This document shows, piece after piece, positions 1-27,714 of a stretch of DNA of 27,714 nt. Source of the DNA: a virus. Under the pieces are notes generated by a model. The model saw only the letters and a list, made by a program, of their open reading frames with translations. It was not told the DNA's origin and did no database searches. The stretch is from positions 1 to 27,714 of the IMG/VR virus record IMGVR_UViG_3300030090_006009, one strand, 5' to 3'. Position numbers and translations under genes: made by a program. Each line of letters begins with the position of its first letter. Position 1 is the first letter of the stretch.

Positions 1-303
1 ATCGGTGGTCGCGCACAGATGGCGATTGAGGCATTCGCTGATGCGCTTGAGTCTATCTCGGCTACCATCGCAGAGAACGCAGGGCATGACCCGCTCGACA
101 CAGTGTTGGCTATGCGCCACGCTGTCCTCAACGGTAGCACATCTATGGGTCCTGATGTGAACGACGGCGGTATTACAGACATGGCAGAACATGGTGTAGT
201 CGAACCCACAGAACTTGTCCGTCAAGCCGTCCTAAGCGCAACCGAGGTGACCAACGCTATCCTACGCATTGACGACATTATCGGGCGAAGGCCGGTGGAA
301 TGA
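1..303 (+). CDS. Group II chaperonin (thermosome) subunit, C-terminal part
   Basis: This is the last 100 residues of a group II (archaeal thermosome / eukaryotic CCT type) chaperonin; the gene begins left of the window. The frame is open from base 1, beginning IGGRAQM. Family landmarks are clear: GGRxQMAIEAFADALE, the LAENAGxDPxD-type segment (here IAENAGHDPLD), GVVEPTELVRQAVLSATE and the terminal ILRIDDII. These belong to the end of the intermediate domain and the C-terminal equatorial domain, which helps form the ATP-binding and ring-contact surface. The family assembles ATP-driven double rings that fold cytosolic proteins. The gene stops soon after RIDDII and lacks the Gly/Met-rich tail many cellular copies carry. 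Its TGA overlaps the next ATG by one base, so it heads or joins a small rightward operon. In a virus it may fold large virion proteins such as the 6772-aa one; that role is inference. The family call is near certain. Confidence 0.93.
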   Translation: MGGRAQMAIEAFADALESISATIAENAGHDPLDTVLAMRHAVLNGSTSMGPDVNDGGITDMAEHGVVEPTELVRQAVLSATEVTNAILRIDDIIGRRPVE

Positions 304-428
304 TGAATGATATTACCTACATCATAGGTGCGGGTTGTATATCATTCCTTACGGTATTCAGCGTGGGATATTTGGCATGGATGACGTACAGTGTATACGC
401 CTTCTTTTCGCTTAAGAAGGATGAGTAA
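303..428 (+). CDS. Small single-span membrane protein (41 aa), unknown function
   Basis: A 41-residue frame begins with an ATG sharing its first base with the chaperonin stop (TGATG). A GGTGG ribosome-binding-like stretch at 294-298 sits four bases upstream. Residues about 5-36 are almost wholly hydrophobic or aromatic (Ile, Gly, Phe, Leu, Val, Tyr, Trp, no charged residue), and the protein ends SLKKDE. This fits one membrane span with a charged cytoplasmic tail. The stop codon overlaps the ATGAGTAAC region preceding the zinc-ribbon gene. I do not recognise a family. Holin-like or virion-membrane roles are possible but nothing supports either specifically. The tight coupling on both sides and the clean hydrophobic pattern argue that it is a real gene rather than a chance frame. 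Confidence 0.6.
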   Translation: MNDITYIIGAGCISFLTVFSVGYLAWMTYSVYAFFSLKKDE

Positions 429-429
429 C

Positions 430-612
430 ATGGGTCGATTGCTTGAGCGCTTGAAGGTCAAGTGTCGTCGTTGTGGACACAACCACATACCCCGTAGGCT
501 GTCAGCACGATTCCTTGATGGAGAGCGTGAGCGTATGCGCCTGTTGTTCTGCAAAGAGTGCGGCCACATTTGGCAAGACTCATCACTGAAGTCTGACAAA
601 GGTAGGGTTTGA
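430..612 (+). CDS. Small four-cysteine zinc-ribbon protein (60 aa)
   Basis: The protein has two CxxC knuckles, C12-RR-C15-GH and C41-KE-C44-GHIW, separated by a basic 25-residue linker. This spacing and the second knuckle CxxCGxxW resemble the C-terminal zinc ribbon of TFIIS, RPB9 and TFS-type transcription factors, which bind one zinc ion. Fold resemblance does not prove a transcription role: the acidic hairpin of TFIIS is not visible. I chose the ATG at 430 because AAGAAGG (414-420) lies nine bases upstream; an in-frame ATG at 421 would add MSN and overlap the previous stop. A longer start at 391 would run deep into the membrane-protein gene. The 3' end overlaps the convergent 389-aa gene by 30 bases. 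Possible roles are modifying host or viral transcription or binding nucleic acid. Confidence 0.75.
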   Translation: MGRLLERLKVKCRRCGHNHIPRRLSARFLDGERERMRLLFCKECGHIWQDSSLKSDKGRV

Positions 613-1752
613 TGCGTCGCTTACTGTACAAACAAATCGTGCATACCCACCATCAGCATCTGCCGTATCACCAATCGCTGATGTAGTTGAATTGGTCAAG
701 GCGAATGTTCCCGTGTTAGACCCATGAGTGTTCTTGATTTCGATGACGTAACCGGCGGGGAAACAACCGCTTGTAGTAACAGCGAATGAACCACCGGGAT
801 TCAAAACAAGGATGTTCGCATCAGCCGCTGTTAGGTCGATTGATGTGGCTGTACTCGTAAGCACACGGTCAAAGACTGACCTTGTGAATCGTGCGGCGTG
901 GGTAGCACTGTAGTAGAGAACGTCTTTGTCGTTGTCACCTGCTGTGGTGCTACTGATTTGGTCACCAAAGGATTGCCACATACCACCGAGAGTTGACGCT
1001 GCGAAGTCAGCCGCTTGAGCCGCACCCGTGTGTAGAGCATCAAGTTCAGCATGACTGTCAACCGCTGTTGTTGCACCGACCGCACCTGAAGTAACAGGTG
1101 TAAAGTAAATCGGTGATGGGCGGAGGAATACACGCTTGTCATTACTTTCTGATACACTGATGTTGTAGTCACCACCTGCTGCATACACAACACGCAAGAC
1201 AGCCAAGACAACGCTTTGCTTCACCGTCAGTGATGCATTGGGTGCATTGAGGAATGATACAGGTGCTGATGGGTATGTGTTACTCGCTGTAGTCACAGGT
1301 GTACCCATTTCCCAAAACACATTCTTTGATGCACCACTACCATCAGAGGCAACATACACAACGCAGAGAGCCTCTTGGCCGCTTGATAGAGTAGCAGGGC
1401 TACCTGTCTTACCGTCGCTGTTGGTAAGTGCCATGTCTACGTGGCTACCCGGACCATTGGCAAAGGTGTAGATAACACCGTCTATCACACAGTGTCCGCC
1501 GGTAATTCTCACAGTGTATGCATTTGTTTGTTGTTCTACAACACCCGGTAAATCTTCAGGTACGCTTCTGTTACTGTCACCTGATGCCGTATCTTGGAGC
1601 AACAGAATGCCGTTACCATGTACACCTTCGTAGAGATTGGTGATTGAGGGTGATAGGATGTGCGACCCATCAATGAGTTTGTCTGCCGCTGAAGCAGAGC
1701 CGGAAAGGGTCATGTTCGCGTTTGTATGTCCTGATAGGGGGTTACCTGCCAT
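583..1752 (-). CDS. Fibre-like or tail-tip structural protein (389 aa)
   Basis: This is the last gene of the leftward tail module. The protein is rich in Thr, Ser, Gly, Ala and Val, low in Lys and Cys, and has no enzymatic motif, as expected for a beta-rich virion appendage. The N-terminal part (MAGNPLSGHTNANMTLSG) looks like an attachment region. The C-terminal about 90 residues, beginning at SIDLTAADANILVLNPGG and passing through PAGYVIEIKNTHG, resemble the end modules of phage tail fibres, where a small beta sandwich often caps the trimer. The start is clear: GAGGTGG (1757-1763) precedes the ATG by four bases, and that ATG overlaps the stop of the 114-aa gene by one base (TAATG). The stop lies inside the convergent zinc-ribbon gene. 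Host recognition is a reasonable inference; the exact family is not recognised. Confidence 0.75.
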   Translation of the reverse strand: MAGNPLSGHTNANMTLSGSASAADKLIDGSHILSPSITNLYEGVHGNGILLLQDTASGDSNRSVPEDLPGVVEQQTNAYTVRITGGHCVIDGVIYTFANGPGSHVDMALTNSDGKTGSPATLSSGQEALCVVYVASDGSGASKNVFWEMGTPVTTASNTYPSAPVSFLNAPNASLTVKQSVVLAVLRVVYAAGGDYNISVSESNDKRVFLRPSPIYFTPVTSGAVGATTAVDSHAELDALHTGAAQAADFAASTLGGMWQSFGDQISSTTAGDNDKDVLYYSATHAARFTRSVFDRVLTSTATSIDLTAADANILVLNPGGSFAVTTSGCFPAGYVIEIKNTHGSNTGTFALTNSTTSAIGDTADADGGYARFVCTVSDASNPTFVRLQ

Positions 1753-2096
1753 TATGCCACCTCGATTGTAATTTGAACTACCAATTCATTGGTTGAAGTT
1801 TTTGTGATAGGGCGAGTTGTGAACCGACCGATAGGTGTAAAACTACTTGCCCCACGGAATTGGACATAGACTTCCTTGATAGTTTCATCGAATGAATCAG
1901 CGAATGGGAGAATGGCTTCGACCAATAATGTATCATCATCAATAATCGTGACTGTAGGCGTGAGCGTGATAGCAGGTCGCCCTGCCGCACCATCGGATGA
2001 TGTGGCAGTAGTACCATCAAAACCGAGAGTAACTTCGTTGATATTGTCTGCGATTGTCTTCGTGAGCAATCTACGTAGATGATTAGATACTGGCAT
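1752..2096 (-). CDS. Small tail/baseplate-associated protein (114 aa)
   Basis: The 114-residue protein begins MPVSNHLRRLLTKTIADNI and continues with alternating beta-type segments: VTIIDDDTLLVEAILPF, EVYVQFRG, IGRFTTRPITKTSTNELVVQI. A short helical N-terminus followed by a beta-rich body ending in an alternating hydrophobic strand is a common layout for small baseplate or fibre-connector proteins of tailed viruses, but I do not recognise the exact family. It lies between the hub-like and fibre-like genes, which suggests that it links the tail tip to the fibre. Its start is supported by GGAGGA at 2106-2111, nine bases before the ATG and inside the last codons of the 481-aa gene, so translation is probably coupled. 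It overlaps the following gene by one base. It is certainly a gene; the role is inferred from context. Confidence 0.72.
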   Translation of the reverse strand: MPVSNHLRRLLTKTIADNINEVTLGFDGTTATSSDGAAGRPAITLTPTVTIIDDDTLLVEAILPFADSFDETIKEVYVQFRGASSFTPIGRFTTRPITKTSTNELVVQITIEVA

Positions 2097-2097
2097 G

Positions 2098-3543
2098 TTA
2101 GAGTTCCTCCGGTATTATTTGTTTGTTGATATTGGTTACACCGCGTTTTACAGCGCCTAATCCTAAACCATTACCTCCAATCTTCCCCCTCGTCTTTGTA
2201 CCCTTTGTACCGCCCAAGAGCATACCACTTGTACCGACTTCTCTTACTTGAATGTTAAGTGTACAAAGAAGTTTGATTTGTCCGAAAAACGATAAATCAA
2301 TTGTTTGTTTTTGTACGATAGTGTCAGGCGCTGTTGTAGTATCTTCGATAACCATCCCCTCCATTACATCAGATATTACACCTTCAAGTCCTGTGTCGAT
2401 GTTCATTAACACAAGGTCACTGGTCGCTTCAGGTAAATTGTGTCGTACCTCCATCACAGTTTTTGTTACCCCGTCGTAATACAAGGTATCACCCGGCCTT
2501 ACATTTGTAAGTCTCGGGTGTCCGTTAGATGTTACACGACCCTTTTGTGTTGCATTTGCTAAGAGGATTTGTCGTCCTAATCTCTTCGCACCTTGTTTGG
2601 TGTTTACTGTGATGTCTTTGATTGCAGATGTTTGTTCTATCATCGTGCCTTCAGCACCCGCTTGTTTTTCTGCATCGTTGATAATTGCATGTGCTGTGTC
2701 GTTCAAAGCCCTCGATGCACCCTCAACAAGTATTCTGTTTGGCATGTCATCTATAGGGTCTTCTTGTACATCGCCCACGCGATAATTTTTATTCACAACT
2801 TTTTCTGAATCAGCAAATTTCATTGGTACATACATCAAGTTACCAAATTTATCAAACAACGTCATACGTTTGTCGTGTCTTGAAATAAATTTCAATGCTG
2901 TACCGAGATTGACATTTCTAAAGTCGCGTGCTACATACCGTGTGGAATGATGGCGGCGATTTTGTGATGCATTTGTAGCAGCAAGTGGCGGTCCAATGTT
3001 GATAGAAATGTCCTCACCATTTGTGGCCTTGCCCATTAACAACGCTAAGTCTGTAGTTCTTAAACCAACGTCGATAGGACTGGCAAAATGCACTTTATCA
3101 CCCGAAAAACCCACATCTGAAATTCGCCGATTCTTCATATTTTGAAGAAACAACGTTCTTCCTGTCGTGCTGGAAATGTTGCTGGAAGGTGCTAACCGTT
3201 GTGAAATCGCATCTGCGTTGAACAAAAGGTCAGGTTGATTTGAATCTGAAATTTTGTCATCGCTATAGAACGGGTTACCGGTATAATTGTGTCCGGGCGT
3301 TAAATTGTGGGTGACTTGTAAAGATGATTCCCCTTCGACAATTTTGTATTTACGTTCAGGTGTGACCTTGAATGTTGTCGCATTGTTCTTCTCTATAGTG
3401 ACTTTGTTCTTTCCATCCATAGTCACTTCCACGCGAGCATGATGGATAGCGTTGTCCACGAACACAGGCTTACGCACGTGGTCCATGACTTCATTGACAT
3501 TGGTGCTGAAACGACCTACGGTTGTGTCAGTAATCAATGTCAT
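2098..3543 (-). CDS. Baseplate hub / tail-tip protein candidate (481 aa)
   Basis: A 481-residue protein with several features of tail hub proteins. A central section reads FISRHDKRMTLFDKFGNLMY, like the RFDxxGxLxY stretch seen in hub domains. Residues about 360-405 contain LTNVRPGDTLYYDG and TVMEVRHNLPEATSDLVLMN, matching the 'xRPGDxVxxxG....VxxVxHxL' pattern of the hub beta domain in siphovirus and myovirus tail proteins. The C-terminus is Gly/Lys rich (about 445-465), perhaps flexible. No peptidase or lysozyme motif is visible. It starts with ATG after a short GTGATG ribosome-binding-like sequence, nine bases after the upstream stop, and its end overlaps the next ribosome binding site. Hub genes usually follow the distal tail protein directly; here a 20-kb gene and four tiny genes intervene. 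The hub call is inference from motif shape and neighbourhood. Confidence 0.6.
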   Translation of the reverse strand: MTLITDTTVGRFSTNVNEVMDHVRKPVFVDNAIHHARVEVTMDGKNKVTIEKNNATTFKVTPERKYKIVEGESSLQVTHNLTPGHNYTGNPFYSDDKISDSNQPDLLFNADAISQRLAPSSNISSTTGRTLFLQNMKNRRISDVGFSGDKVHFASPIDVGLRTTDLALLMGKATNGEDISINIGPPLAATNASQNRRHHSTRYVARDFRNVNLGTALKFISRHDKRMTLFDKFGNLMYVPMKFADSEKVVNKNYRVGDVQEDPIDDMPNRILVEGASRALNDTAHAIINDAEKQAGAEGTMIEQTSAIKDITVNTKQGAKRLGRQILLANATQKGRVTSNGHPRLTNVRPGDTLYYDGVTKTVMEVRHNLPEATSDLVLMNIDTGLEGVISDVMEGMVIEDTTTAPDTIVQKQTIDLSFFGQIKLLCTLNIQVREVGTSGMLLGGTKGTKTRGKIGGNGLGLGAVKRGVTNINKQIIPEEL

Positions 3544-3552
3544 AATGCATCA

Positions 3553-3891
3553 CTAACAATTCCATCTCTTGAGCGCCGCACCTTTCGGTGTCATCTTACC
3601 CTTCTTACTTGTCGGTCCTTTCACACCTGACATACGAGCGCAGAATGATTTGCGTCGCTTGGCCTTCTTGGAACCGGGCTTGAGTTTACTTGGCTTGGTC
3701 GTGACGGGTGGTTTCAGATTCGCGCCTGTCTTGCGCTTGGCGGCGGCTCGACCCTTTGCATTCAATCCACCCTTACGACTGTGTTTGTTTGGGTTGTAAC
3801 CGTGGAATGGCTTACTCTTCTTCTTCTTCGCCTTGAGAAATTCAAATGCCATCTCACCCGGAGTACAACAATCACAAAATTCATCACTCAT
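3553..3891 (-). CDS. Lysine-rich phage protein, DUF6321-like (112 aa)
   Basis: The body reads RKGGLNAKGRAAAKRKTGAN, followed by LKPPV, a Lys/Pro/Ser linker, then RRKSFCARMSGVKGP and finally TPKGAALKRWNC. The pairing of GGLxxKGR with a later RRKSFxxRM...GP is a pattern I associate with DUF6321 proteins of tailed phages; their function is not established. The first 20 residues contain three cysteines (C6, C8, C9) and an acidic patch, then KAKKKKSKP. The whole protein is strongly basic, consistent with nucleic-acid or virion-surface contact, but that is inference. I chose ATG at 3891, which overlaps the previous stop by one base (TGATG) with GGTGAT just upstream; a TTG one codon earlier is less likely. 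It is last in a four-gene mini-cluster of similar small proteins. Confidence 0.75.
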   Translation of the reverse strand: MSDEFCDCCTPGEMAFEFLKAKKKKSKPFHGYNPNKHSRKGGLNAKGRAAAKRKTGANLKPPVTTKPSKLKPGSKKAKRRKSFCARMSGVKGPTSKKGKMTPKGAALKRWNC

Positions 3892-4184
3892 CAAATCACC
3901 TTGACCATCTTTACTACTGTAGGTTTACCACCTACTCCTTGTTTCTTAGAACGCTTGCGTTTGGTTGCGGCACGCTTCTGTCCCTCTGTCATAGAGCCGC
4001 TTGTCTTTGGAGTCTTGCTACTGACCTTTACACTCGGTCTGCATTTAGGATAACCCTTGCTATCCTTCTTGGCTTTAGAACGACCACATGGTGGGTGTTT
4101 CCCATCTTTGTCCTTACGTGATACGTCCACCCATTTTTCCTTGAACCATCGGTTCAAATTTTTACGAACAAGAACTTCAGTCAT
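3891..4184 (-). CDS. Basic small phage protein, DUF5872-like (97 aa)
   Basis: The N-terminal segment LNRWFKEKWVDVSRKDKDGK is followed by PPCGRSKAKKDSKGYPKCRP and, after a Ser/Lys linker, MTEGQKRAATKRKRSKK. The Trp-Phe-Lys-x-x-Trp-Val-Asp motif, the CGR...YPKCRP pair (C33, C48) and the basic tail match what I remember as DUF5872, found in tailed phages and some large eukaryotic viruses, with no known function. I placed the start at the internal ATG (4184), which forms an ATGA overlap with the preceding stop and has GGGGAAGAA just upstream; a longer reading from 4241 would add 19 residues that run through the previous gene out of frame. The protein is very basic. It sits in the mini-cluster between giant protein and hub. 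The DUF number is from memory and should be confirmed. Confidence 0.72.
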   Translation of the reverse strand: MTEVLVRKNLNRWFKEKWVDVSRKDKDGKHPPCGRSKAKKDSKGYPKCRPSVKVSSKTPKTSGSMTEGQKRAATKRKRSKKQGVGGKPTVVKMVKVI

Positions 4185-4387
4185 TTCTTCCCCGCCCATG
4201 CATCGCACACGTGGTCGGCACGACAATTGAAGTCGTACCACTTACAATAACCTGTCATCGGGTCATCTGTTTTCGATGAATCCCATGCCTTGCAATTACC
4301 ACATTTCTTTGAATCAGTTGCTTTCCTGTAATTAGGAGCATCTTTCTTGGCTTTGATAACAGCCCATGCATCTTCAAAGGAAATCAT
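4181..4387 (-). CDS. Five-cysteine small protein, HiPIP-like or zinc-binding (68 aa)
   Basis: Five cysteines at residues 29, 32, 48, 55 and 61 form the pattern CGNC-x15-C-x6-C-x5-CDAW, with GYCKWYDF between. Phage proteins with CxxC ... GxC...F ... YxCDAW spacing are often described as resembling high-potential iron-sulfur proteins; zinc binding is equally compatible with the cysteines. The N-terminus (MISFEDAWAVIKAKK) is helical and repeats the DAW element also seen in the 55-aa neighbour. ATGA overlaps join it to both the upstream 55-aa gene and the downstream 97-aa gene, so the four genes are probably co-translated. A small metal-binding structural or assembly role is plausible but not demonstrated. 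The start is firm because it is coupled to the upstream stop and preceded by an AAGGGGAAGAAG stretch. Confidence 0.72.
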   Translation of the reverse strand: MISFEDAWAVIKAKKDAPNYRKATDSKKCGNCKAWDSSKTDDPMTGYCKWYDFNCRADHVCDAWAGKK

Positions 4388-22500: not shown

Positions 22501-24866
22501 GTCCCAACAACCAATTTGTTGAACACAGAGTTATGTGGTACATCAGTATGAGATGCTGCAATAATTTGTGGTGTAGTATTTGGTTTTGCCGTAGCATCGT
22601 TGGGTGGTGTGTAATTGTTCGGACATGTAGATTCATCTAATTCTGTATCTGCTTCTAATCCACCCGTGTTGTCTCCAACAAATAAATTGGCTTCTTCAAA
22701 CATATCAAATGTTGAATTTGAAGGTATTGTTACATGAATATACCCACCTGCTGAAAACAACGTTGTATCTTTGGTTGAGTCTGCAAGGTCAGATTCTATT
22801 ACATCCAAAACAGTTGTAGTGCCTGTAATTACAAAATTACCCGCTGGAACTGTTTTTTCAACCATCAACATAGGGAATGTTTTACCCATTGACGCACCCG
22901 TTAAATCAATTGCATTGTAATGTATTTCTACATACGGTGCAAGGTCGTGTGATGATTGAAGTGTAGGTACTTTGAGCAAAGCAACGCGACTGGTGGTTTC
23001 AGGTCGTAAGTGATATGAGCGCGTGTTCGCATCAATTGTTTCAAATTCAGGTAGTGGGCCTTTGAGTAAAAATGGTTTGTAATTGAATTTACTATGCCCT
23101 ATTGCAATCATTTTTCGTTTACTGTCAGGTAAACCATTATCGACACTTGTATCTACTTTGCATGAATTAACAAATGTTTGAATTTCCATTTCACCTTGTT
23201 CTGTATATACATCTATACGTGAGTTAATTGGAAGAGCCGTTTTCAATCCTTTGTGTTGTGAATCATACACCAATGTGCTAATGTCAGATGATACACCTAT
23301 TGTTTGGTCATGATTTTCTGATGATGCACGTGGTAATTGACGTAAAAATTCGTGTCCATCTACATGACTAAATGTATGTCTCCCGCTATGTCCTACTTGA
23401 TACAATTCATCTAATGTTGTAGGCCAACTTACCGCAAATGGATTGTTAGGCGAATTTGATGTCGTTGCCATTTTTGTCGAATACACCATGCCATGTTGGG
23501 AAAATGGACCTTCATCAATTATCATTTGACCTGTTGTATCAATAACTTGTGATGCTATATGTGATGGTTGATACGGTTTACCTGTACCATTATCAACCAA
23601 TAAATCAGCACCAAGTACAACAAAATAATCGTCAGTATTTGCTGTACGGTCATGCAATACACCGCGTAATCCAATTGAGCCAAACGCCGATGTTGCCATG
23701 TTGTTAAAATCTACGTGAATACTACTGACAGTCAGTACACCTGTTGCTGCGTTTATACTGTGCAAACGAACCCTCTCGGGTGGTTTTTGATTTGGTTTTT
23801 GTGTATCTCGATTGATTGCACCGGGGTTAATGAGAAGATTGTATGGTACGTGTGGCACTGACATGGTAGATGCAGAACCCGGACTCGATACGTAATTGAC
23901 AACTTCGTACTTACCCATACTGTAAGGTGATGCTGTGAAGTCAACAGTCGAAGAAGTAAATGTTGTATGTGCTTTACCTGTAAGACTTAGAATCATACTT
24001 TCTGCTTCAGTTGTAGAAATTTTGATGGTCGTTGTGGTCCCATCTGTTGCCGCTGAATACACCGATGAAGTGTCACTACCCAATCCAATAATTGTGTATT
24101 CTGTAGTATCTATCTGCAACGGCTCTTCAAAACGATACAATGCTCTTGAATCATCATTTACAAGAGGTGCAGTATCAGTTGAAAGAGCATCACCGAAAGC
24201 GTTTGTAAAATGCAATGACTCAATTACTCCTCTAAATTCTCCACCTTGACCACCTACATACAAGTGATTATTTGTTCTTGAAATTCTCGCATCCGGTGGT
24301 AATACAGCGCTTGCCATCAGTTGCCCGTTAATTACAAGTTGAACTTTATTTGACGTTATACCCGCTACTACATGCATCAAGGGTCGATGATTGATGTTTA
24401 GATTTGTAGCATCATTCGATGAGCCGATAAATCGGTTGTAAGAATCATGTATACCCCCATCAAATGTAGGATATACCGAGCCACTGTATCTCGTAGAGGC
24501 GTCAACAGCCGTGGTTAATGTAATTCTTTCCCGGCCATTTTTACTCTCTACAATGACGGAGAATGTCGCCGGACCCGCTGTATCGACATTACCGATACTT
24601 AATTCAAACTGACCTTCACAACTTGCTACAACGCCACCGCAATCGGGTATAACCCATGCTTCGATAGCAAATTCACTATCTGATTTTTGTGTCAGAAAAG
24701 TTGTATCTTTTGTTCCGTGCGGAGATTCACCAAGAATTGAAATTGGGCTTTTTGGGCCTTCAGGAAGTTCTTGACCTACGTTGTTAAACCGCCCTTGGGG
24801 AACAATAATACTGTCAGTTACACCATCAAAAAAATACGCGTGACTTGTACGACGTATTGCTGTCAT
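4548..24866 (-). CDS. Giant modular virion protein with LamG-like domains (6772 aa)
   Basis: One uninterrupted frame of about 20.3 kb encodes a protein of roughly 6772 residues. It is rich in Gly, Ser, Thr, Asn and aromatic residues, low in cysteine, with no membrane span or catalytic motif that I can see. Modules in order: a LamG/concanavalin-type jelly roll at about 10-225; two GGSGY beta segments near 990-1075 and 1510-1600; five related beta repeats at about 1801, 2176, 4148, 4218 and 5694; two VSGSGIP repeats at about 3201 and 5032; and a second concanavalin-like domain at about 6325-6565 (starting near GMALWLKADNLTLANG). Such modules usually bind glycans or build extended appendages, so this is probably a giant tail-tip or host-adhesion protein. 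I chose ATG at 24866, preceded by GGTGAT, over a TTG at 24887 lacking a ribosome binding site. Long stretches between modules are unrecognised. Confidence 0.85.
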   Translation of the reverse strand: MTAIRRTSHAYFFDGVTDSIIVPQGRFNNVGQELPEGPKSPISILGESPHGTKDTTFLTQKSDSEFAIEAWVIPDCGGVVASCEGQFELSIGNVDTAGPATFSVIVESKNGRERITLTTAVDASTRYSGSVYPTFDGGIHDSYNRFIGSSNDATNLNINHRPLMHVVAGITSNKVQLVINGQLMASAVLPPDARISRTNNHLYVGGQGGEFRGVIESLHFTNAFGDALSTDTAPLVNDDSRALYRFEEPLQIDTTEYTIIGLGSDTSSVYSAATDGTTTTIKISTTEAESMILSLTGKAHTTFTSSTVDFTASPYSMGKYEVVNYVSSPGSASTMSVPHVPYNLLINPGAINRDTQKPNQKPPERVRLHSINAATGVLTVSSIHVDFNNMATSAFGSIGLRGVLHDRTANTDDYFVVLGADLLVDNGTGKPYQPSHIASQVIDTTGQMIIDEGPFSQHGMVYSTKMATTSNSPNNPFAVSWPTTLDELYQVGHSGRHTFSHVDGHEFLRQLPRASSENHDQTIGVSSDISTLVYDSQHKGLKTALPINSRIDVYTEQGEMEIQTFVNSCKVDTSVDNGLPDSKRKMIAIGHSKFNYKPFLLKGPLPEFETIDANTRSYHLRPETTSRVALLKVPTLQSSHDLAPYVEIHYNAIDLTGASMGKTFPMLMVEKTVPAGNFVITGTTTVLDVIESDLADSTKDTTLFSAGGYIHVTIPSNSTFDMFEEANLFVGDNTGGLEADTELDESTCPNNYTPPNDATAKPNTTPQIIAASHTDVPHNSVFNKLVVGTPFNSKTKNLTDADDGTLRRAVSATSSGTGVFDIGSTHGNSNVFEMFDIIDLKFEGDDVGICIQPTNRKRTNQLQHLRSRVEHHKEPNVVSCFYMMGQHRIHSVTESEGESGLVTTVQTRSMADSMVSQNVNIIGEGSPDSTIVKEIEPNAPVVTVSLGGPGQGAVNTKPTWDPSPFARLPWSTQHACAAQGISVKNTPFGVVSSVTVTNGGSGYNDATNDAATVENVNGNGAALTGTVTVGTSSTGVIASWTVTSGGYNWAVGDTFKVKQTDAGSGSPSASSVIKTSLLTIATIDDGATEKGTWLSVAPLNNDSPDMKSWGTYCFPKQGRIYLADGASAEYYAKTGSAFLFDSTDALKDRKFLLNDGQAVTLFSEWCVRNGLTTINQTGVFEINQVIYNTNKFLDENLCQDGTTVNDRLFQTMNDVTHDYQLGTQYASTRALVEIPVFPNQFFQNATDAVYPGPDNSMKIHLDATYTAHTWNPTPVGRRCKDSEASDKEAFSSFSKNFANKDFLLSANITLIEMNKTSPSEDTGGVPYHAVHVDNPDIFPRGDEMHRVADHQVPLVRKVFLPSGEWGMYREIDTDEKFLYISTYSENFFQEAKPGVPLSLSSMYDTESLIPIGSDFDTPTADFESRSDYYLDRANVQTQGGNLDYGLRQYVSAVEFAAGPKANPHAPRIQSKRAKGTVKKIEPLSNHNGYTGLAIVTVDNDAAELFPEVEYETTVTGSSGQVLTTGTVVGGLNYTGSGTLATKGGHGTGCTVTVAVTGSADRPVASIASIVSGGSGYRVGDVLSIVDSGIGSGASFVVATIQEKSMVLSAGDALYTAQVTYENNDYEMYYLGVTPMTNAENLGNSSFLVMTEKISGGTPYAIPAFVTNMEGLDIQLKKKGMAVKSVSNPSLQRDDELTTATFRSVAHTGGYTGANYDEWKYQITASAGSTTTLYLTQGDTENGARLLHANQQGLAIRVDDEIYVENHASLGDIGYVGKVASVTSYLVPTAPMSLTQNSGGTISAGATSAFSVSANPTSHYIAGDVLYALIDNVPRLAGIVTASTSTPNITIGGGTIIDIPDGTTLLRGRTTITLDANNVSAITADNYIRVGTGTVMQEDDDALLNSTWYYPYAPGGLRNGDTVWMNMTMNNPHAVEGLFCKSRGVLNEGQVWSGFNGGEGTLAVSRPRESIPLENFLIADNCLDTAINFAQHVNKTVELNYEAMGLDASQAPTIAYVDPYLASSDKARVLLYDVAHDREFIAFHDIHMQVQSSAQASYVGVPRMFSTIDGTFDMPYTMSTINGGNPSQYSTQIDVANGFPTENKWHRATQQSAFIEGAYAHDIANNQFGAKATGNMASLSPTRWKDHFTNAPPSVRPIAMSTTNSGHNYVQINNTAGYPKGTTTAMTTQTLPAREIFNVGDIVYTSQYASGGTASIPFTGVILGKVTAVAAASITIGAGTNVPLIDGAALYKDVNLNYYGKSHGHYVHSGLRYEALTDDRAVADSAQPRTTPATCNSHWANDYHIDSRKEKNTLYPLIQAFRDSRLALGDDYKIRESSTLFDTPDGTRCISAFLALKGIRSKELDLSNHEESRLQHLPHWTQMDFVRRLTIDFGEIGQKEGIVDIESAAREIVRIVNQGGAKKGRTHARRPSHQYPGESDRFDLGRIGARQDTMDENIDATAAHISADFAATGSTFDPAPWWDAGNAQENSDRGTHMGYLRAHLGRVIEDRNGQTGFTIVIHSTIPGASGRNFCLWLDNSKGQAAYQPQFLIGHGGRFRNFWCQPDEILGENMHPAPMPLNKHGRPFAPVTTLREYLNTESTSEPFLSNSDYGDRGDPHKEAKLDSTAHLRLLSSTMGSGMTSNTVNDESFEIQSPAASFVEGLRPASRATARVNFGGLVESGVPGFAPDTGPWGFGRKGDKRFAGYYGKRYLYGKELDIQKYTSHVPSSQITNESIGETPVYGFRLVDHYGRGHGLRYIYRKFGEKFSNEQTILPSTIENEVCIFFNDQDVSQGGFTLGHHMYGAGDATGRMTPIDEITGGGVEFASSKYKHWRGNKWRGVPATNMAVGAISTYDATNKILTVQLEVPYHGNTHPVIGGVRAVSSVDILGYFGFPKTDGLIQITDRLIDSDSLTGDRGHTYSYTHRTVSTAYGLQNHQFFGVEGDTWTPVNHSTSQHELTVSGIATDGSEDFGVSTIDVKTLISPVLNHTTLMTDELMAAVTEFAINLADPNEIEGAVFDCTNMYAFDGRTFGEWGVAPDAIRVRAFNPENKIKPISQMFTASVHRDLGIQATHNEFGEYEYLGAPSDPSIASTGKWFIYSGDGTANSPYTALSNTDIDNQKRYPCGYIPNTILQIRTKGRGYHANTPTPVLVDSFNDPVDTERWRKNLKGVNFTELPGDHILPRINNPNVELSDIDIQQSFTVGGGTYNNETEIEHTSSSLIKVGFVVSGSGIPEGSTVSSITSDTIFQLSQTTTGGSKSGETLTFTPPYSDNTPFDILDGHVALRSDYVSNYGYDSPTGTWEQEISFLVKPPTARGTEMRDSVGNDFKTILPSYGEQRTVYLGSNPNASALVEGINTIVLANIEERTGVGVQVNGNFSAGAASTINTKTVNANKQFKPADYIFVNSGEPIGQYALTTAASNFGLSGTNYQALSDNDSLYYIPSNRVLKWTPESATDAWNNMIESALPLRERNLSYFVDKRARLFDGYRLHGSAFSEPIVYFRGARDSVDHSVPLYFGGGFSGVVIDVNDGTQNDYSEFYTHPYSKGPTGCAGIQHANEISTSFANIDCNALMAFFPGTALTDNHRGSRGKPFYNQDNVLSPDMTVTGATVIASHPYPAKYSAGMLIQKPSPLVLRFAHPTARYEDHVTDTENKTTYIVFGPGQPFPSMEDNANNTNEPDTAYALIQGNTWSTLGLANLPNSINNNDLLEGPFDATYQSNYGFFHWRTRLNWEPAKGVPLIGTAHGTAGLNQRPEDGRFYGDSFTNVRAGGDVVNANTSQYYMNAHPTRHCVYSWYGSTRAADYVWHMEGGYAPGGSWLDNQITCNPPHALSNYRVAKYSWTHTHPTSFRVSAAMATSILPNTGPANAAAVDMEYIVVDATRCQNGEELATVLGNAINEHPGGGALKAMGGTFMPSMGNAMRQDRTGWVSLTTDAMSYSHHTLVPIDETEAGTKTISSILTASGDVHITAPVTNQATGEQLPACGWLRTQESGRNPTAPTDLVFPAFAPYHSREVYESSGNWFVRFYLAPNRISGLPLFEDAYTFDQHCRGRTVAANTLSFPALGADPGAQVILCVWTKAGVHRMNNVNHSARDHMAQVHFNGLMDAIDRTRPIGAMGWAGERYSYLNTLPITDGTTVPVSSTTETTGSAYAAGTTSAMTITSDISAHLAVNDTAFNSSGNALGVVTAISTTSMTIGAGTKYALANGELIYKATQINNGSGYAVNTTGAMTTNGTAASTSFAVGEVLYKADGSKIGTITAVGSTSITIGGGTLVALADNDVIYKANRVYAAGKGAWHPKLGFSPYGAASSCLNVLSHLPSAYPMMNSPEATPMVDGFQYNVPHTSLIFAPYHFHVFRGLSDFTAAGSEGVYTANSTDAYHYRSYSDSSTTSHDGVVKYTPEHYDITNFELPSTMYHPQGLYSRAMLVVSYESELPLVAKRDRDGITSTGDWLAVVSKTTAGVAAATAITFAGTTQWNERIHDPSRFTAPATAGPNVEALIATGTSLPTVADLNDADASPFNAIYTLHSAVSADSSLFNAEPCLNHIGDLFFDYDKSPGSGHLETYTGRTGSVERNLALGWEERSSGAGLGDRYGTSDENNAYWIGDVNGYDTYKNNPAKNFSVEHVVWKRMDGGNLSLPASNARGLGAVPWITRVLSNTPHVMGEELLGNCRFSFETTNSAMFPVIQAQELSHPQLAARHPDELRNVMMIPNEDIQFEEIEVQDDTGQVHIVEGGSPFGTIIRGFRTISDRGTEGLAPAIANSGISPNLKVQLPNPDSVPGNIIVRSGFDPIQAYQTETIGGGGMLHPSMDSSVKHLFNNSVLSPRLGPSFDNHNWEHISQESSGVAFPDVKKSGWENATDNKPLQTSYELHDRTLFFHVTKSGNTHTHRYPTTYTHSAGVVNNDLTATTYSGTTLTVNASINTTLFATGFGESEMNDSRRFLRLYNPTTGRGGVASYTSISGAEFRGCVGDADFDALVAGSITTLKVVPSYYTPAGSSRFYAARRLRDHAEVSGSSPDMAHTQYFDGVADFTVGSASYNNDPTITHASSTAIRANMLVSGSGIPTGAYVASVTDATHFELSVSTTGGSKTGQTLTFQTPAYEIYKKPKMTPMPIPRMGHHYVTPTMAMLPGHWAHPAYQAVYDLHRACRSSTTPLLEKQLMDAQGKTTLKASVASSVTDQFSGHDPPMNFSSLTATPSGPSDIHGGAFTLMFESKVRHDGYGILASKGQAGVINSKGGHTIVLEAAANYTLDNHFPDPSEVGAYQIVIQPNLHTSQLTGFHENGGATALPDGSVEELTNQQVALVIGMKQADSTRGAVALVLAEATMADVRGCEVFINELMIDLDPDHGSQFTNIPPLLTYNALGVQGTESPAFTRANSFPYHPGMFANSTPGFTTNIPWWSILHKTGIGSGVTDDIGHRHLSIYRFDDYYQFCRANYGSISSQLTLAGYPSIYPDIYSPILENRSLNPSAVVTDIDVNGKSAWTTNSAFTGIQVDDGRNFMQEPYYGQKLEYIDKNGKRQSKLYAIRSGVEVGVKNTANVFSIEAISGIDKDDTFYANLEVGMTIRLTRAYDFKPAGSIFTDAKTSIITRTLPQTLQGSRDTNSLHMADAFLSLWHPNLGRPHTFYSDSSRTWATPASDRAVDAKPYNMMPEHFETIHYHDGTYYASMGPFGLLIQTPKPSYRYINNAGSPTLVTSVTTAGHLHTIQHDTVSAAISVGTYVTINGKAVGTVYASTTTQIQIAQQNIPTINVGDEIFVGGDGTLLEGNATHAISGLAYQGGQFDGSDAQTQTMLNKFWPCGSRGGPLVSRLDGYAYVSTAWSYPEQYDYNAPVWSDQDDDGSYAVSSGITKADYSSTHGGGGSTRPRPFGYRYGLRQPYNRPQWSMYGARGFVEANAGGSSGTTFVRGYKHGPLVQEETQTWTYTGGSGLSNATYPSTYVGIMERKTNFSGMLAGDKSEWQVRYSEGRRMTRPFGCPVRTLRNTNNVARDWWGEGEGKNLSTIDQIAGYYIVDWWGNTRGEDVRRYPVRGFGIRPAWDCGNAYEYDRTNGRTPFERILNDEKPIFNMKNVVAWNGTTVSVSSDYTLPRFGGTLNDDNNNNTDKLVDVFAPTRSMRIGDMGNGRGVRYPTMFNEDVLTALDEPTRSTGLVLSHNTAEPPVSDGYIRPRNDTLQADEITRGISNKLDIAEDGLLKPEAVVSDRIETISGASPHKDPISRSSPRIGIDAENDQATEANLVVINTEAHSLHTDRNVGQRIVLEGGLQSGSQTLAHYDLTDLTFAGQPQGGVMRFSHTNPFTVLGGTYILEARNYLKHIDDTGWTAIPTSGMALWLKADNLTLANGAAVTQWNDLSGNSRNFTQSSSSLQPSYVASDADFNNMPVINFDGSDKLALDFDAGLNTNQFTIFIVTAVSSDTDAIEAIIDSRSASPVTRSGFNFYADMRNSGGANNWEFWVGANSSWSAISASSSSVSTSGAPSLLVGQISGGDGAGASAAQLFRVNGTQIGTATPTFYKSTADASQLGTNATSSYQLNGDMSEIIQYNRALSTEEIKQVEAYLATKYGISGTAGFKTSNPYETAAFPAVLSQTNYGDKSVKFLVRPVRMLDKQHVEIFRPNNSLHSSSPQYGSTAYSATAGGKYGVFAYEMPNARASSVYMRGTNPDTNPPYAPVYRIVPGVSDSVPVGKGPKLLGSGMADFDKTTIGTTVSRLVISENTLQHHRSDAARRRTVVDDDGVETRMDYNVQPRFSQSLHPKGHKGDVTFNTSDHSGDAA
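5165..5900 (-). other. C-terminal concanavalin-like domain of giant protein
   Basis: Encodes about residues 6325-6565. It begins MALWLKADNLTLANGAAVTQ, continues WNDLSGNSRNF, FTIFIVTAV and INFDGSDKL, and ends with GDMSEIIQYNRALSTEEIKQ and VEAYLATKYGI. This is the typical layout of a laminin-G/pentraxin-like surface module found in bacterial and phage adhesins. It lies about 200 residues before the C-terminus. Confidence 0.8.
7575..7788 (-). repeat. GDVLY...TIGGGT beta repeat, copy 5 (diverged)
   Basis: About residues 5694-5765: TSVTTAGHLHTIQH, ISVGTYVTINGKAVGTVYAS, IQIAQQNIPTINVGDEIFVG. The strand order is kept but the TIGxGT signature is lost, so membership is less certain. Confidence 0.45.
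9557..9773 (-). repeat. VSGSGIP repeat, copy 2
   Basis: About residues 5032-5104: FTVGSASYNN, LVSGSGIPTGAYVASVTDAT, then TTGGSKTGQTLTF. The protein match to copy 1 covers about 70 residues with the same strand order and no large insertions. Confidence 0.75.
12005..12213 (-). repeat. GDVLY...TIGGGT beta repeat, copy 4
   Basis: About residues 4218-4288: GYAVNTTGAMTTN, FAVGEVLYKADGSKIGTITA, SITIGGGTLVALADNDVIYK. This is the cleanest copy and sits in tandem with copy 3, which suggests local duplication within the gene. Confidence 0.7.
12225..12424 (-). repeat. GDVLY...TIGGGT beta repeat, copy 3
   Basis: About residues 4148-4214: AAGTTSAMTI, LAVNDTAFNSSGNALGVVTA, SMTIGAGTKYALANGELIYK. It is directly followed by copy 4, so these two form a tandem pair. 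Confidence 0.7.
15055..15266 (-). repeat. VSGSGIP repeat, copy 1
   Basis: About residues 3201-3271: FTVGGGTYNN, VVSGSGIPEGSTVSSITSDT, then TTGGSKSGETLTF. It pairs with a second copy about 1830 residues later. The motif 'VxGxGIPxGtxVxsv' followed by 'xLSxxxTGG' recurs in phage virion proteins. Confidence 0.75.
18108..18340 (-). repeat. GDVLY...TIGGGT beta repeat, copy 2
   Basis: About residues 2176-2253: GTTTAMTTQT, FNVGDIVYTS, GKVTAVAAASITIGAGTNVP, LIDGAALYKD. Compared with copies 3 and 4 it has a longer loop (ASGGTASIPF) after the GDIVY strand. Confidence 0.65.
19265..19465 (-). repeat. GDVLY...TIGGGT beta repeat, copy 1
   Basis: About residues 1801-1868: SAGATSAFSV, then YIAGDVLYAL, a GIVTA strand, ITIGGGT and DIPDGTTLLRG. 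It shares the order 'TTxAMT - vGDvLY - iGtVTAV - ITIGxGT - LxdGxxLYK' with four other stretches of this protein. Confidence 0.6.
20070..20335 (-). repeat. GGSGY beta segment 2 in giant protein
   Basis: About residues 1511-1600. It holds GGLNYTGSGTLATKGGHGTG, then IVSGGSGYRVGDVLSIVDSG, matching the layout of the first copy (glycine-rich entry, conserved SGGxGYxxGD). Similarity is at protein level; the DNA has diverged. Confidence 0.6.
21640..21905 (-). repeat. GGSGY beta segment 1 in giant protein
   Basis: About residues 988-1076. It holds VTVTNGGSGYND, then a Gly/Thr/Val-rich stretch and VTSGGYNWAVGDTFKV. Segments of the type 'GGSGYxxGD' occur in many phage structural proteins. A diverged second copy lies at 20070-20335. 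Confidence 0.6.
24190..24840 (-). other. N-terminal LamG/concanavalin-like domain of giant protein
   Basis: Encodes about residues 10-225. It has the standard jelly-roll order: AYFFDGVTDSIIVPQG (first strand), DSEFAIEAWVIPDCGG (the 'fxiexWv' strand), HVVAGITSNKVQLVINGQLM (the 'hvAgvxdgxxvxlyvNG' strand), NNHLYVGGQGGEFRGVIESL (the 'lyiGg...f.G.idev' end). The fold usually binds carbohydrate or protein ligands. Confidence 0.75.
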
Positions 24867-24869
24867 GAC

Positions 24870-24875
24870 ATCACC
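24870..24875 (-). promoter_or_regulatory. Ribosome binding site deciding the giant gene's start
   Basis: GGTGAT lies three bases before the ATG at 24866 and overlaps the TGA of the 397-aa gene. It can pair with the AUCACC part of an archaeal-type 16S rRNA 3' end. The alternative TTG at 24887 has no such sequence upstream. The same GGTGATG element precedes the 55-aa gene. Confidence 0.55.
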
Positions 24876-26064
24876 AAATTTTATCAATGGGCGCGAATAC
24901 GATGGTAAACGAATAAATTGGCTCTCCGCCTAATTGCGTAAATGTGGCTTTTTGCACAGAACCTTTGATACCTGTATTCCATCTGCTCTCTTCAGAAAAT
25001 TCAGTGCTTGCAGGTTCAGAATTTTCTGTTGATTTTTCACTTACGGTTGTAGTCCCACCAGTTGGCATAAAGAAATTTCTTGCACTGTACTCTAAACCTG
25101 TGCTTCCACCGCCATGAAATTTTGAATTATAGGGTATTTGAATAGCAATAATGTAATCACCATAACGTTTATTTTCTGAGAATTTTTCAATAAGATTACC
25201 AACAGAAACAGTTCTTTTATTTTGTGAGTTATTCAAAATACCAAACAAATTCATTACTTTGTCACCAGCGGAAAGTTGTTTTGCACCGTCTGTAGAACCT
25301 CTGCCACCTCTAAACGTTGCCATATATGGAATTTTAGCAGTATTGTTGAAACTGGGAAGTGATACAGGTGTACGAGTATCACCATCATCACCGGCTGTTA
25401 CTTGAGTAATTTTTACTTGGGTATTGGCTTCATTTGTAAAACTCGATGTTTGGAGTTCAGCAACAAATTTACTACTAAGATGGTTGTTTATGACATCACA
25501 AAAATTGTCTGCTACTTGTGCAGCAGTTCCATATGCATTTGTGTCAGTTCTGTAAATACCAATGTAATATTGCTCATTTGAAGGAACTGGTGCGCCTGTG
25601 TCTTGCCCTCTTATGTTGTCAAGAGCAGTTGAATGACTTACAAAATGTATTACGTGATAATTACCATCAGTATCATTAAGTCGAATACCCGCTATAGCAT
25701 TTTCAACAGTTGTAGTTGTCGCATACAAACCACTTGAATATTCTACTTGTTCACCACCACCCGTCAACCAAGATTCCGCAGCAGTGGTACTTTCTGAACC
25801 CGATTTAAATGAAATAGAAAAATCAACTGTTGCATATGAAGCCAAAGCACTTGCATTAGTATTTACAAATGTGTCATCTGTGATAATTCCATTAATGATA
25901 ATTGTAGCATTGTTCATGTTTAAATCAAAACCAAGTCGCGTGCTACCCGAAAGAGGCATTGCCATACCACCGGTTTTGCGCTCAACATCAAGTGCTACGT
26001 CGGTCGCCATGAGTTCGGTAATGTCGCCGTTTTGATGTACCAAACGAATGGGAATATTTGACAT
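24871..26064 (-). CDS. Minor tail protein in distal-tail position (397 aa)
   Basis: The protein directly follows the tape measure protein, where siphovirus-like genomes usually place the distal tail protein. It starts MSNIPIRLVHQNGDITELMA, passes through a beta-rich region with NATIIINGIITDD, and has a long Ser/Thr/Ala-rich middle. It ends with ATFTQLGGEPIYSFTIVFAP, a strand-rich terminus typical of tail tube or tail-tip proteins. A flexible Ser/Thr/Glu stretch lies near residues 340-365. There is no signal peptide, membrane span or enzymatic motif. The start ATG overlaps the tape measure stop by one base (TAATG) and GAGGGG lies nine bases upstream. The exact family is not recognised; a distal tail protein, tail terminator or tube protein are all possible, with distal tail favoured by position. 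Confidence 0.65.
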   Translation of the reverse strand: MSNIPIRLVHQNGDITELMATDVALDVERKTGGMAMPLSGSTRLGFDLNMNNATIIINGIITDDTFVNTNASALASYATVDFSISFKSGSESTTAAESWLTGGGEQVEYSSGLYATTTTVENAIAGIRLNDTDGNYHVIHFVSHSTALDNIRGQDTGAPVPSNEQYYIGIYRTDTNAYGTAAQVADNFCDVINNHLSSKFVAELQTSSFTNEANTQVKITQVTAGDDGDTRTPVSLPSFNNTAKIPYMATFRGGRGSTDGAKQLSAGDKVMNLFGILNNSQNKRTVSVGNLIEKFSENKRYGDYIIAIQIPYNSKFHGGGSTGLEYSARNFFMPTGGTTTVSEKSTENSEPASTEFSEESRWNTGIKGSVQKATFTQLGGEPIYSFTIVFAPIDKIW

Positions 26065-27059
26065 TAGTATCTACCCCTCATCGTTGTTGTACCCAATGAA
26101 CGGGCAACTTCTTGTTGTACCATATTACCAATGTCACGTGCAAATTGTCGCTTGTCACTTCTGTCGGTAAGACCGGATAAGTTGAATGTCATATTGAAAC
26201 TGTGGCCTCCGCCACCACTCATTTCAACAGGAATAGAACGACCGTTGGGTAAAGGTACGATGGCTTCTGTACCGTGTAACATAGCCGGGTAACCACTGGA
26301 TGGACCGGATGCGATACCACCTTGTGAGAAGCCTAAGAACCCACCTACAGCACCCACAGCGCCGCTTATACCACCACCTATGGTATCGGTTATACCACTC
26401 ACCGCATCAATAATAGGTTGAATTATGTCCATAACAGATGAGGCAAAACCCGATGCTGCGCCTATGAGCCAATCAAATGCATCACCTATGGGGTCTGTAA
26501 CGTAGGTGTCCCAAGCATTACCAATGCCTTCCCAAATACCACCTAAAAAATTTAATGCTTCTGAACCTTTACCACCAAGCCAACTCCAAAATTTACCTAT
26601 TGGGGTTGTAAGATATATATCCCACAATGCACCCATGAGTATCAAAGCACCATCCCACATTTTACCTATGCCTTCAAAAGCAACAGTAAAGCCACTAAGC
26701 ATCATTGTGGGAATATTCAAAATAAAATCTATCAAATTGCCCCAAGGGTCTAACATGAATGTTTTGTACGCTTCATGTATTTTGTTAAATGTTTCATCAA
26801 ACCATCCACTAAGAGAAGATATTGACTCGCTCATAAAATCAAAGAATGGTTGTAAAGGCTCTACGACACTCGTATTCCATTTTTCTTTCACCATATCCCA
26901 TGCTGTACCAAATGCATCTTCAACTTTTTTTGCAGTATCTTTTATATTTTGAATGAAATTTGAAATTGATTGACTAATGTTTTTGAAACCTGAACCAATG
27001 GTATTTAACATTGAAGTTGCGCCCGATAATGAACCCATCAACGCCGCTAAACCTGCCAT
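26064..27059 (-). CDS. Tape measure protein, short (331 aa)
   Basis: Tape measure proteins occupy the tail lumen, set tail length and help DNA enter the cell. Here the C-terminal third carries the familiar pattern GGIASGPSSGYPAMLHGTEA, IVPLPNGRSIPV, then FNMTFNLSG and a final helix (DIGNMVQQEVARSL). The N-terminal two thirds are helical, with Gly/Ala/Ile-rich hydrophobic stretches. Four similar segments occur near residues 60, 97, 145 and 182, of type 'W-x-x-Y-V-x-D-P-I-G-x-x-F-D-W-L'. Length is short; many tape measures exceed 700 residues, so a short tail is implied if the whole protein is the ruler. I chose ATG at 27059, with AAGGAGGA six bases upstream, over a TTG one codon earlier. It overlaps the preceding stop by one base. 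Confidence 0.85.
   Translation of the reverse strand: MAGLAALMGSLSGATSMLNTIGSGFKNISQSISNFIQNIKDTAKKVEDAFGTAWDMVKEKWNTSVVEPLQPFFDFMSESISSLSGWFDETFNKIHEAYKTFMLDPWGNLIDFILNIPTMMLSGFTVAFEGIGKMWDGALILMGALWDIYLTTPIGKFWSWLGGKGSEALNFLGGIWEGIGNAWDTYVTDPIGDAFDWLIGAASGFASSVMDIIQPIIDAVSGITDTIGGGISGAVGAVGGFLGFSQGGIASGPSSGYPAMLHGTEAIVPLPNGRSIPVEMSGGGGHSFNMTFNLSGLTDRSDKRQFARDIGNMVQQEVARSLGTTTMRGRY
26460..26882 (-). repeat. Four diverged Trp/Pro repeats in the tape measure protein
   Basis: Segments at residues about 60-77 (KWNTSVVEPLQPFFDFM), 97-114 (AYKTFMLDPWGNLIDFI), 145-162 (LWDIYLTTPIGKFWSWL) and 182-199 (AWDTYVTDPIGDAFDWL) share the pattern aromatic-x2-T/Y-x3-D/T-P-hydrophobic-G-x3-aromatic-x-aromatic. 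The spacings are 37, 48 and 37 residues. Confidence 0.7.
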
Positions 27060-27340
27060 CAAAAGTCCTCCTTATCCAAAAATGAGTAATCCAATCTTAC
27101 TGTTTCGTTACCGTTGCTCTTTGCTTTTTGTTTTGCTACTTCTTGTTGCTTAACTTGCTCTTCTTCTACGACCAACGCCCAAGCGAGTGATTGCTTGAAG
27201 ATAGCAGGTGGCATTGAATAGACTTCCAACAGTGATACCCCATAGTGCTTTGCCACCCTATACGCTAATCCTTGTAGTTGATACTCAATATCTTCCGGCG
27301 TTTCAATTTTCCTTTTTTCAATATACCGTTCTACCTTCAA
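27059..27340 (-). CDS. Tail assembly chaperone, -1-frame partner (93 aa or longer)
   Basis: This frame lies between the first chaperone gene and the tape measure gene, the classic place of the lambda GT-type extension. It encodes KVERYIEKRKIETPEDIEYQ, helical IFKQSLAWALVVEEEQVKQQ and a charged C-terminus, with no known domain. Its only possible start is a TTG at 27340; the next ATG is at codon 43. No ribosome binding site precedes the TTG, although almost every other gene here has one. The frame is open upstream to 27385, is -1 relative to the 124-aa gene, and overlaps its end. It is therefore more likely made as an extension of the 124-aa protein by -1 frameshifting (about 217 aa in total) than on its own. 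The extension would read VYQSEQLKVERYIEKRKIE across the join. Confidence 0.7.
   Translation of the reverse strand: MKVERYIEKRKIETPEDIEYQLQGLAYRVAKHYGVSLLEVYSMPPAIFKQSLAWALVVEEEQVKQQEVAKQKAKSNGNETVRLDYSFLDKEDF
27066..27073 (-). promoter_or_regulatory. Strong ribosome binding site of the tape measure gene
   Basis: AAGGAGGA is six bases before the ATG at 27059 and lies within the last codons of the 93-aa frame. It is the best match in the window and fixes the tape measure start. Confidence 0.7.
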
Positions 27341-27711
27341 CTGCTCGGATTGGTAAACCCCCCTTGCATGGCCTCTGCTACTTCGTTAGGTTGCGGCATA
27401 ATTTTGGCAATTTGGTCACCAACGTACCCCTTCAATGACATGATTTCTTCTTTTGTCAAATCAGGGTCAGTGCGCGAAATCCAATTGGAAAAAGCATATT
27501 CCCAATATCCGCTAAGGTTGAATGTAAGTTCGCCATCTACAATGTTAAACATTGTTTGGGCTGCATTTTGTATATCCAAGAAAGAGATGTCACGAATCCA
27601 TACGTGCATGACAGAAGCCTCGTCATCGGGGTCAACCCGTATAACATGCTTCGTTGATGTGTCATTCTTCAGTATCAGGCTCTTGTTCTGTATCACCGTT
27701 TGGTTGTTCAT
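27337..27711 (-). CDS. Tail assembly chaperone (gpG-like), 124 aa
   Basis: A 124-residue mixed alpha/beta protein upstream of the tape measure gene. It contains VIRVDPDDEASVMHVWIRDI, then SFLDIQNAAQTMFN, GELTFNLSGYWEYAFSNWI and a C-terminal helix LTKEEIMSLKGYVGDQIAKI. Small proteins with a beta N-terminus and helical C-terminus placed just before the tape measure gene are typically tail assembly chaperones, which coat the tape measure protein during tail formation and are not in the finished virion. The 'LTKEEI..L..YV...I..' ending is characteristic of that group. The start is an ATG three bases from the window edge; the frame stays open to the edge, so an earlier start cannot be excluded. 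It overlaps the 93-aa frame by four bases at its stop. Confidence 0.72.
   Translation of the reverse strand: MNNQTVIQNKSLILKNDTSTKHVIRVDPDDEASVMHVWIRDISFLDIQNAAQTMFNIVDGELTFNLSGYWEYAFSNWISRTDPDLTKEEIMSLKGYVGDQIAKIMPQPNEVAEAMQGGFTNPSS
27355..27363 (-). promoter_or_regulatory. Candidate -1 frameshift site (G6T3 run)
   Basis: Near the end of the 124-aa gene the message reads CAA GGG GGG TTT ACC, six G then three T. A glycine tRNA on the second GGG could slip back one base and still pair perfectly with GGG, moving the ribosome into the 93-aa frame, which is open here (27385 downward). It is not a perfect X XXY YYZ heptamer, because the TTT codon would become GTT, so slippage would rely mainly on the G run. 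Confidence 0.45.
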
Positions 27712-27714
27712 TTG

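Follow-up and report, generated by a model that had tools for sequence, protein, structure and literature searches.

The window analysed here is a 27,714-base stretch of DNA, positions 1-27,714 of the single IMG/VR virus record IMGVR_UViG_3300030090_006009, in which the tetramers GATC, AGCT and CTAG occur not once on either strand. Judged by its gene content and by that of its nearest long relative, G002 (61.7 kb), it is part of the genome of a tailed, magrovirus-like virus that infects marine archaea. The hosts are probably archaea of Marine Group II (MGII), the Poseidoniales. The missing words belong to a pattern that extends over a whole virus clade and suggests a prolonged arms race against host defences that cut DNA. 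In the window, the end of a chaperonin gene precedes ten minus-strand reading frames, given below with protein lengths in amino acids (aa) and with the matches to the 112 loci of the clade.

1..303, plus strand: C-terminal end of a thermosome (group II chaperonin) gene truncated at the window edge (Pfam Cpn60_TCP1, E 1.1e-24; thermosome models, E ~1e-28)
583..1752, minus strand: 389-aa protein with no Pfam or PHROGs match, common to 75/112 clade loci
1752..2096, minus strand: 114-aa clade-shared protein with no assigned function, matching 76/112 clade loci
2098..3543, minus strand: 481-aa protein with no assigned function, the query for the closest relatives, matching 76/112 clade loci
3553..3894, minus strand: small basic protein, DUF6321 (Pfam E 2.3e-17)
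3891..4241, minus strand: small basic protein, DUF5872 (Pfam E 3.9e-11)
4548..24887, minus strand: reading frame of a giant 6,779-aa protein, the main carrier of the codon-level evidence
24871..26064, minus strand: 397-aa protein with no Pfam, PHROGs or phage-collection match
26064..27062, minus strand: tail tape-measure-like protein (PHROGs tape measure families, best E 1.5e-14)
27059..27340, minus strand: reading frame of a 93-aa protein with no family match (Pfam, PHROGs)
27337..27711, minus strand: reading frame of a 124-aa protein at the window edge with no family match (Pfam, PHROGs)

The chaperonin end matches 106/112 clade loci and is the marker that ties the window to the clade. The giant protein makes up 73% of the window and is probably a virion or tail component; it has Laminin_G_3-like stretches near both ends, and only its C-terminal part is widely shared (60/112 clade loci). 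G002 encodes a full chaperonin, a family B DNA polymerase, a clamp-loader-like ATPase, a SNF2 helicase, an HMGL-like lyase and two nucleases, of the ERCC4 and PD-(D/E)XK types. Magrovirus-type replication genes and a chaperonin are thus found together in G002, while the window itself holds the chaperonin end alone. No near relative among deposited phages is found, either by DNA search or by a search of the phage collection with two window proteins.

Words missing from the window

Only three of the 256 tetramers are at zero in the window, namely GATC, AGCT and CTAG, for which an order-2 Markov model predicts 100.8, 66.6 and 41.3 copies. Expectations, here and below, rest on Markov models or on shuffles, and the choice has little effect on exact zeros. 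The original prediction, made by reading the letters, had claimed the complete absence of the three words, and the exact 4-mer count bears this out. Its estimate of about a hundred expected copies per word agrees with the model for GATC but exceeds it for AGCT and CTAG. It had also noticed correctly that other palindromic tetramers are present: CATG occurs 111 times, GTAC 120, TCGA 63, GGCC 30, GCGC 61 and TTAA 68.

In the ten minus-strand frames, synonymous codons were exchanged at random so that every protein and the codon usage stayed the same; the words then return at mean counts of 71 (GATC), 73 (AGCT) and 42 (CTAG), and the minima over 300 shuffles are 55, 56 and 27. Because synonymous shuffling brings the words back, codon usage and composition are rejected as their cause of loss. 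The avoidance is visible codon by codon in the giant protein, as had been predicted from a partial reading: aspartate before C is always written GAC (54 GAC, 0 GAT), against 91 GAC and 266 GAT elsewhere, and alanine following a codon with final A is never written GCT (0/150), against 132/409 elsewhere.

Losses in the window are not confined to these tetramers. CCWGG is absent (0 versus ~30 expected), CCAG/CTGG is reduced to 25 (~145 expected) and CTCAG/CTGAG to 1 (~25 expected); GGYRCC, GWGCWC and many 6-base palindromes are likewise lost. In all, 35 of the 443 testable known enzyme sites are at zero. Milder depletions affect TATA, TTAA and CACA. A blanket avoidance of palindromes is ruled out, with AATT, ATAT, ACGT, TGCA and GCGC at normal level.

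Distribution over the virus clade

Relatives were gathered with the window 481-aa protein, with the G002 chaperonin and polymerase, and, for three other relatives, with their chaperonin or polymerase. The resulting set comprises 63 clusters at 90% nucleotide identity and 1.22 Mb; all viral sequences are metagenomic fragments, and counts beyond the window are made mostly on loci of 4-22 kb. GATC is at zero in 63/63 clusters (0 versus 4,415 expected) and AGCT in 61/63. Other palindromic tetramers reach zero in a fraction of the testable clusters: CGCG in 29/54, CTAG in 20/62, ACGT in 24/61, TCGA in 9/61, GTAC in 6/63 and GCGC in 3/59. On both the chaperonin and the polymerase trees these six words flip between exact zero and near-normal; GATC remains at zero in every lineage of the clade. 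Exact zeros hold over a G+C range of 0.36-0.56. One clade member of 22 kb (L103) is without seven palindromic tetramers: GATC, AGCT, CTAG, CGCG, ACGT, TCGA and GTAC.

A very distant polymerase match (L534, 21% identity) has GATC and falls outside the clade. In cyanophage contigs of the same collection, used as controls, GATC reaches 0.91 of its expected count, and one of these contigs, which shares its metagenome with clade member L068, contains 24 GATC in 4.3 kb. In cyanophage-like controls (L266-L345, 652 kb) another word is missing: CCGG is at 0 versus 209 expected, with GCGC and CGCG scarce, a second case of lineage-wide tetramer loss.

Correspondence with restriction-enzyme sites

In G002, 86 of 561-562 testable known enzyme sites are at zero, that is about 51 non-redundant sites, of which 30 are palindromic and 21 asymmetric. 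A comparable length of putative host DNA has no known enzyme site at zero. A scan of bipartite palindromic words (X-Nn-X') with adequate expectation gives GACN3GTC, GACN4GTC, GACN5GTC, GACN6GTC, CCTN5AGG, GCCN5GGC and GCAN5TGC as depleted in G002, and CCAN9TGG and GATN4ATC in a further relative, G001. Each of them is a known enzyme site with identical spacing, a specificity for which there is hardly an explanation other than restriction. The same scan of the window itself reveals no depleted palindromic bipartite word. One asymmetric bipartite word, GAAN4ATC, is also absent from G002 (0 versus 48 expected; L013-L016); it is the sole word of the 3-N-3 form lost at spacings of 4-9 and may mark a system of another type.

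Asymmetric words are lost strand-symmetrically, with both orientations gone from the coding strand. Therefore, the target is double-stranded DNA and not RNA.

Return of AGCT with a C5 methylase

AGCT is near expectation in three contigs, with observed/expected counts of 47/58 (L519), 75/94 (L520) and 35/44 (L533) that rest on loci of 10-22 kb and on methylase loci of 3.4 kb; GATC is at 0 in all three. The polymerase tree puts L519 and L520 inside a set of AGCT-free lineages, and this position is strongly supported; L533, with a partial polymerase only, was left off this tree. Each of the three contigs has a 262-aa open frame for a C5-cytosine methylase, and the L540 methylase retains intact catalytic motifs (GSPCQGFS, ENV). 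The family is missing from 45/48 other contigs searched, the remaining 3 having longer relatives; absence of AGCT in these 48 contigs was counted on loci of up to 22 kb. The association of AGCT with the methylase has a Fisher's exact p of 0.001 when counted by contig, and represents about one lineage. The viral enzyme is predicted to protect AGCT. A D12 (Dam-type) methylase is found above the family cut-off in none of the contigs, which fits the loss of GATC in every cluster.

Two further features of these methylases may be mentioned. The C5 methylases of L535-L540 are similar in sequence, differ in length and in their middle region, and come from several clade lineages including the AGCT-containing one. 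Among solved structures, the 262-aa form has its best match in DNMT3A-type chains.

Tetramers and restriction systems of the putative hosts

The putative hosts are Thermoplasmatota genomes with a rhodopsin gene, which we take to be MGII. In a closed genome of this group (single contig of 2.06 Mb, 2.04 Mb read), the five lowest of 136 tetramers are AGCT (0.32), CGCG (0.39), CTAG (0.39), GATC (0.59) and ACGT (0.69). For the 16 palindromic tetramers, the pooled values of the viruses follow those of 13 MGIIa-type host samples (rho 0.81, p 1.7e-4), a correlation partly guided by the division of the hosts into two groups after rhodopsin type and depletion had been viewed. Pooled virus values are uncorrelated with those of other archaea (0.32), of the second rhodopsin-bearing group (0.27) and of cyanophages (0.09).

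Restriction systems are present in the putative host group, and they are variable. Methylase families are unevenly represented in 80 putative host genomes, with PF01555 in 47, PF02086 in 6 and PF00145 in 9. PF01555 mostly occurs as one solitary methylase per genome. Such a solitary N4/N6 DNA methylase adjoins a phosphoglycerate kinase and a peptidase gene (L205:1255-2211, L191:1255-2211), and this phosphoglycerate-kinase-adjoining form is very frequent in one group of putative MGII genomes. CGCG methylation in MGIIA has been reported from a methylome (PMC9516812), a result that suggests a possible CGCG specificity for the PF01555 host methylase. Clear accessory systems occur in single genomes: a methylase of the Dam family, a C5 methylase with an Eco47II-type endonuclease as its neighbour, and a 597-aa frame (L221:514-2304, minus strand) in which a D12 adenine methylase is fused with a HaeIII-type endonuclease domain.

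Restriction and its rivals

Very probably, the viral genomes have been purged of restriction sites under host restriction, with occasional rescue by a viral methylase. Incoming viral DNA with GATC, AGCT or CTAG would be cut by host Type II restriction endonucleases, and mutations that create these words would thereby be eliminated. GATC would always be purged in the clade and AGCT nearly always; CTAG, CGCG, ACGT, TCGA, GTAC and GCGC, together with dozens of 5-6-base sites, would be purged or tolerated according to lineage. Change from lineage to lineage is what would be expected if lineages face different host restriction repertoires. A virus-encoded methylase would be the second route to protection, with one case, that of AGCT. 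Selection by host restriction was the cause named in the original prediction; it is now supported by the null models, the spread over the clade, the match to enzyme sites, the mild depletion of these tetramers in putative hosts and the co-occurrence of AGCT with a methylase. The original prediction treated the three sites alike, which suits GATC and AGCT, near-constant over the clade, and does not suit CTAG, which varies by lineage.

Several points weigh against this explanation. The check for GATC and AGCT methylases in hosts, proposed together with the prediction, gives a mixed answer: none is found to be universal in the 80 putative host genomes, and accessory restriction systems exist in single genomes. 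The closed genome has one recognisable DNA methylase of the types sought. The hosts themselves are assigned through the shared tetramer signature, and we infer their enzymes for GATC and AGCT. Methylase rescue concerns a single lineage, with an enzyme whose specificity is a prediction. Finally, asymmetric sites are lost as well, unlike the result for Type I and IIG systems in the largest survey (PMC6286503).

That no universal host methylase is found gives some room to a non-classical defence, in which hosts would act at GATC and AGCT through, for example, phosphorothioate or a modification invisible to methylase searches, the viruses avoiding the targets. GATC phosphorothioation in archaea is mentioned in PMC7230728. 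On the other hand, the C5 methylase goes with the return of AGCT, which fits a classical cytosine-sensitive endonuclease, and a defence of the non-classical kind is an unlikely cause. In a related proposal, Poseidoniales would share unrecognised near-universal defences against GATC and AGCT other than classical methylase-endonuclease pairs, in keeping with a clade that is GATC-free as a whole; we give it a small chance. The constancy of GATC loss where no constant host system is found could also be accounted for by a sequence-specific nuclease of the viruses themselves, which would cut host DNA at GATC and AGCT and from which they would be protected by site loss, not by methylation. Relatives do encode PD-(D/E)XK and ERCC4 nucleases, but the former match is to a broad superfamily and the latter is of repair type, neither being a known restriction endonuclease. 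Moreover, the dozens of lineage-specific losses would require dozens of viral nucleases, and the putative hosts are depleted in the same words. A viral nuclease is therefore improbable.

Explanations in which no nuclease takes part fare worse. Composition, codon usage, mutational bias or RNA-level constraints may be invoked for the milder TATA, TTAA and CACA depletions of the window, but the codon-preserving shuffles restore the words, the zeros persist across the G+C range, motifs flip between zero and normal among related lineages and loss is equal on both strands; such causes are scarcely conceivable. That every sequence is a metagenomic assembly leaves an artefact of library preparation, assembly or sampling to be considered. 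GATC is abundant in the cyanophage controls, including the contig from the L068 metagenome, and the variable motifs track the trees, so that an artefact has a negligible probability.

Under host restriction, the missing words become a record of the restriction enzymes met by each virus lineage: across deeply diverged uncultured ocean viruses, GATC and, with few exceptions, AGCT form a fixed core, and the other losses vary around it. This record concerns hosts that are difficult to culture and whose genomes mostly have one DNA methylase, and it offers a testable link between the viruses and MGII. It also supplies a simple signature, GATC absent and AGCT all but absent, by which such viruses can be picked out of metagenomes; and the contigs in which a lost word reappears together with a methylase amount to a natural experiment.

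Comparison with known systems

Purging of sites is already known. According to Rusinov et al. 2018, Type II sites are eliminated from genomes of double-stranded DNA viruses, completely or nearly so in about a tenth of genomes, and the sites are almost wholly those of orthodox Type II systems (PMC6286503). Unlike in those cases, loss here is fixed across a clade, affects many sites and includes asymmetric words. The asymmetric losses qualify the view that avoidance is limited to orthodox Type II sites.

As to gene content, Aoguangviridae (Magrovirales), which are tailed viruses infecting MGII archaea, have a polymerase B replisome, a chaperonin and an HMG-CoA lyase (PMC10768690). G002 resembles them in its family B polymerase, clamp-loader-like ATPase, chaperonin, PD-(D/E)XK nuclease and HMGL-like lyase (PMC10768690). 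The chaperonin differs, being GroEL in the Aoguangviridae profile (PMC10768690) and thermosome-like in the window. A survey of magroviruses (PMC10160649) nowhere mentions restriction, palindromes or GATC. A search of the open-access literature gave no account of such site loss in magroviruses; subscription papers, including the first magrovirus description, are outside this scope.

The joint loss of the trio, held uncommon in the original prediction, has a precedent. Haloarchaeal viruses lose GATC and CTAG, and mincapviruses AGCT too (PMC7230728, PMC9229481); the comparison here is with Mincapvirus and the HF1 group (HRTV-7, HF1, HF2; Hafunaviridae). In HRTV-7, recounted here, GATC, AGCT and CTAG are at 0, as in the window, versus 221, 130 and 86 expected in 50 kb, and about 46 non-redundant enzyme sites are missing. 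The halovirus losses are almost all palindromic (42/46), whereas 21/51 of those in G002 are asymmetric. The trio is not lost by all haloviruses: HF1 retains AGCT, and HRTV-27 retains GATC and AGCT (PMC7230728). Kinship with Mincapvirus is not close: there is no DNA match, two window proteins find no match in the phage collection, and the G002 polymerase has ~25% identity at best with haloviruses.

The closest parallel to the methylase comes from the archaeal tailed viruses of Liu et al. 2021, in which GATC is present with a Dam methylase and absent without it (PMC8651126). Similarly, AGCT is present here in contigs with a particular C5 methylase; the motif, the methylase type and the virus clade are different. 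What appears new is that the losses span a whole clade of marine archaeal viruses, that they include asymmetric sites, and that a methylase supplies a natural test.

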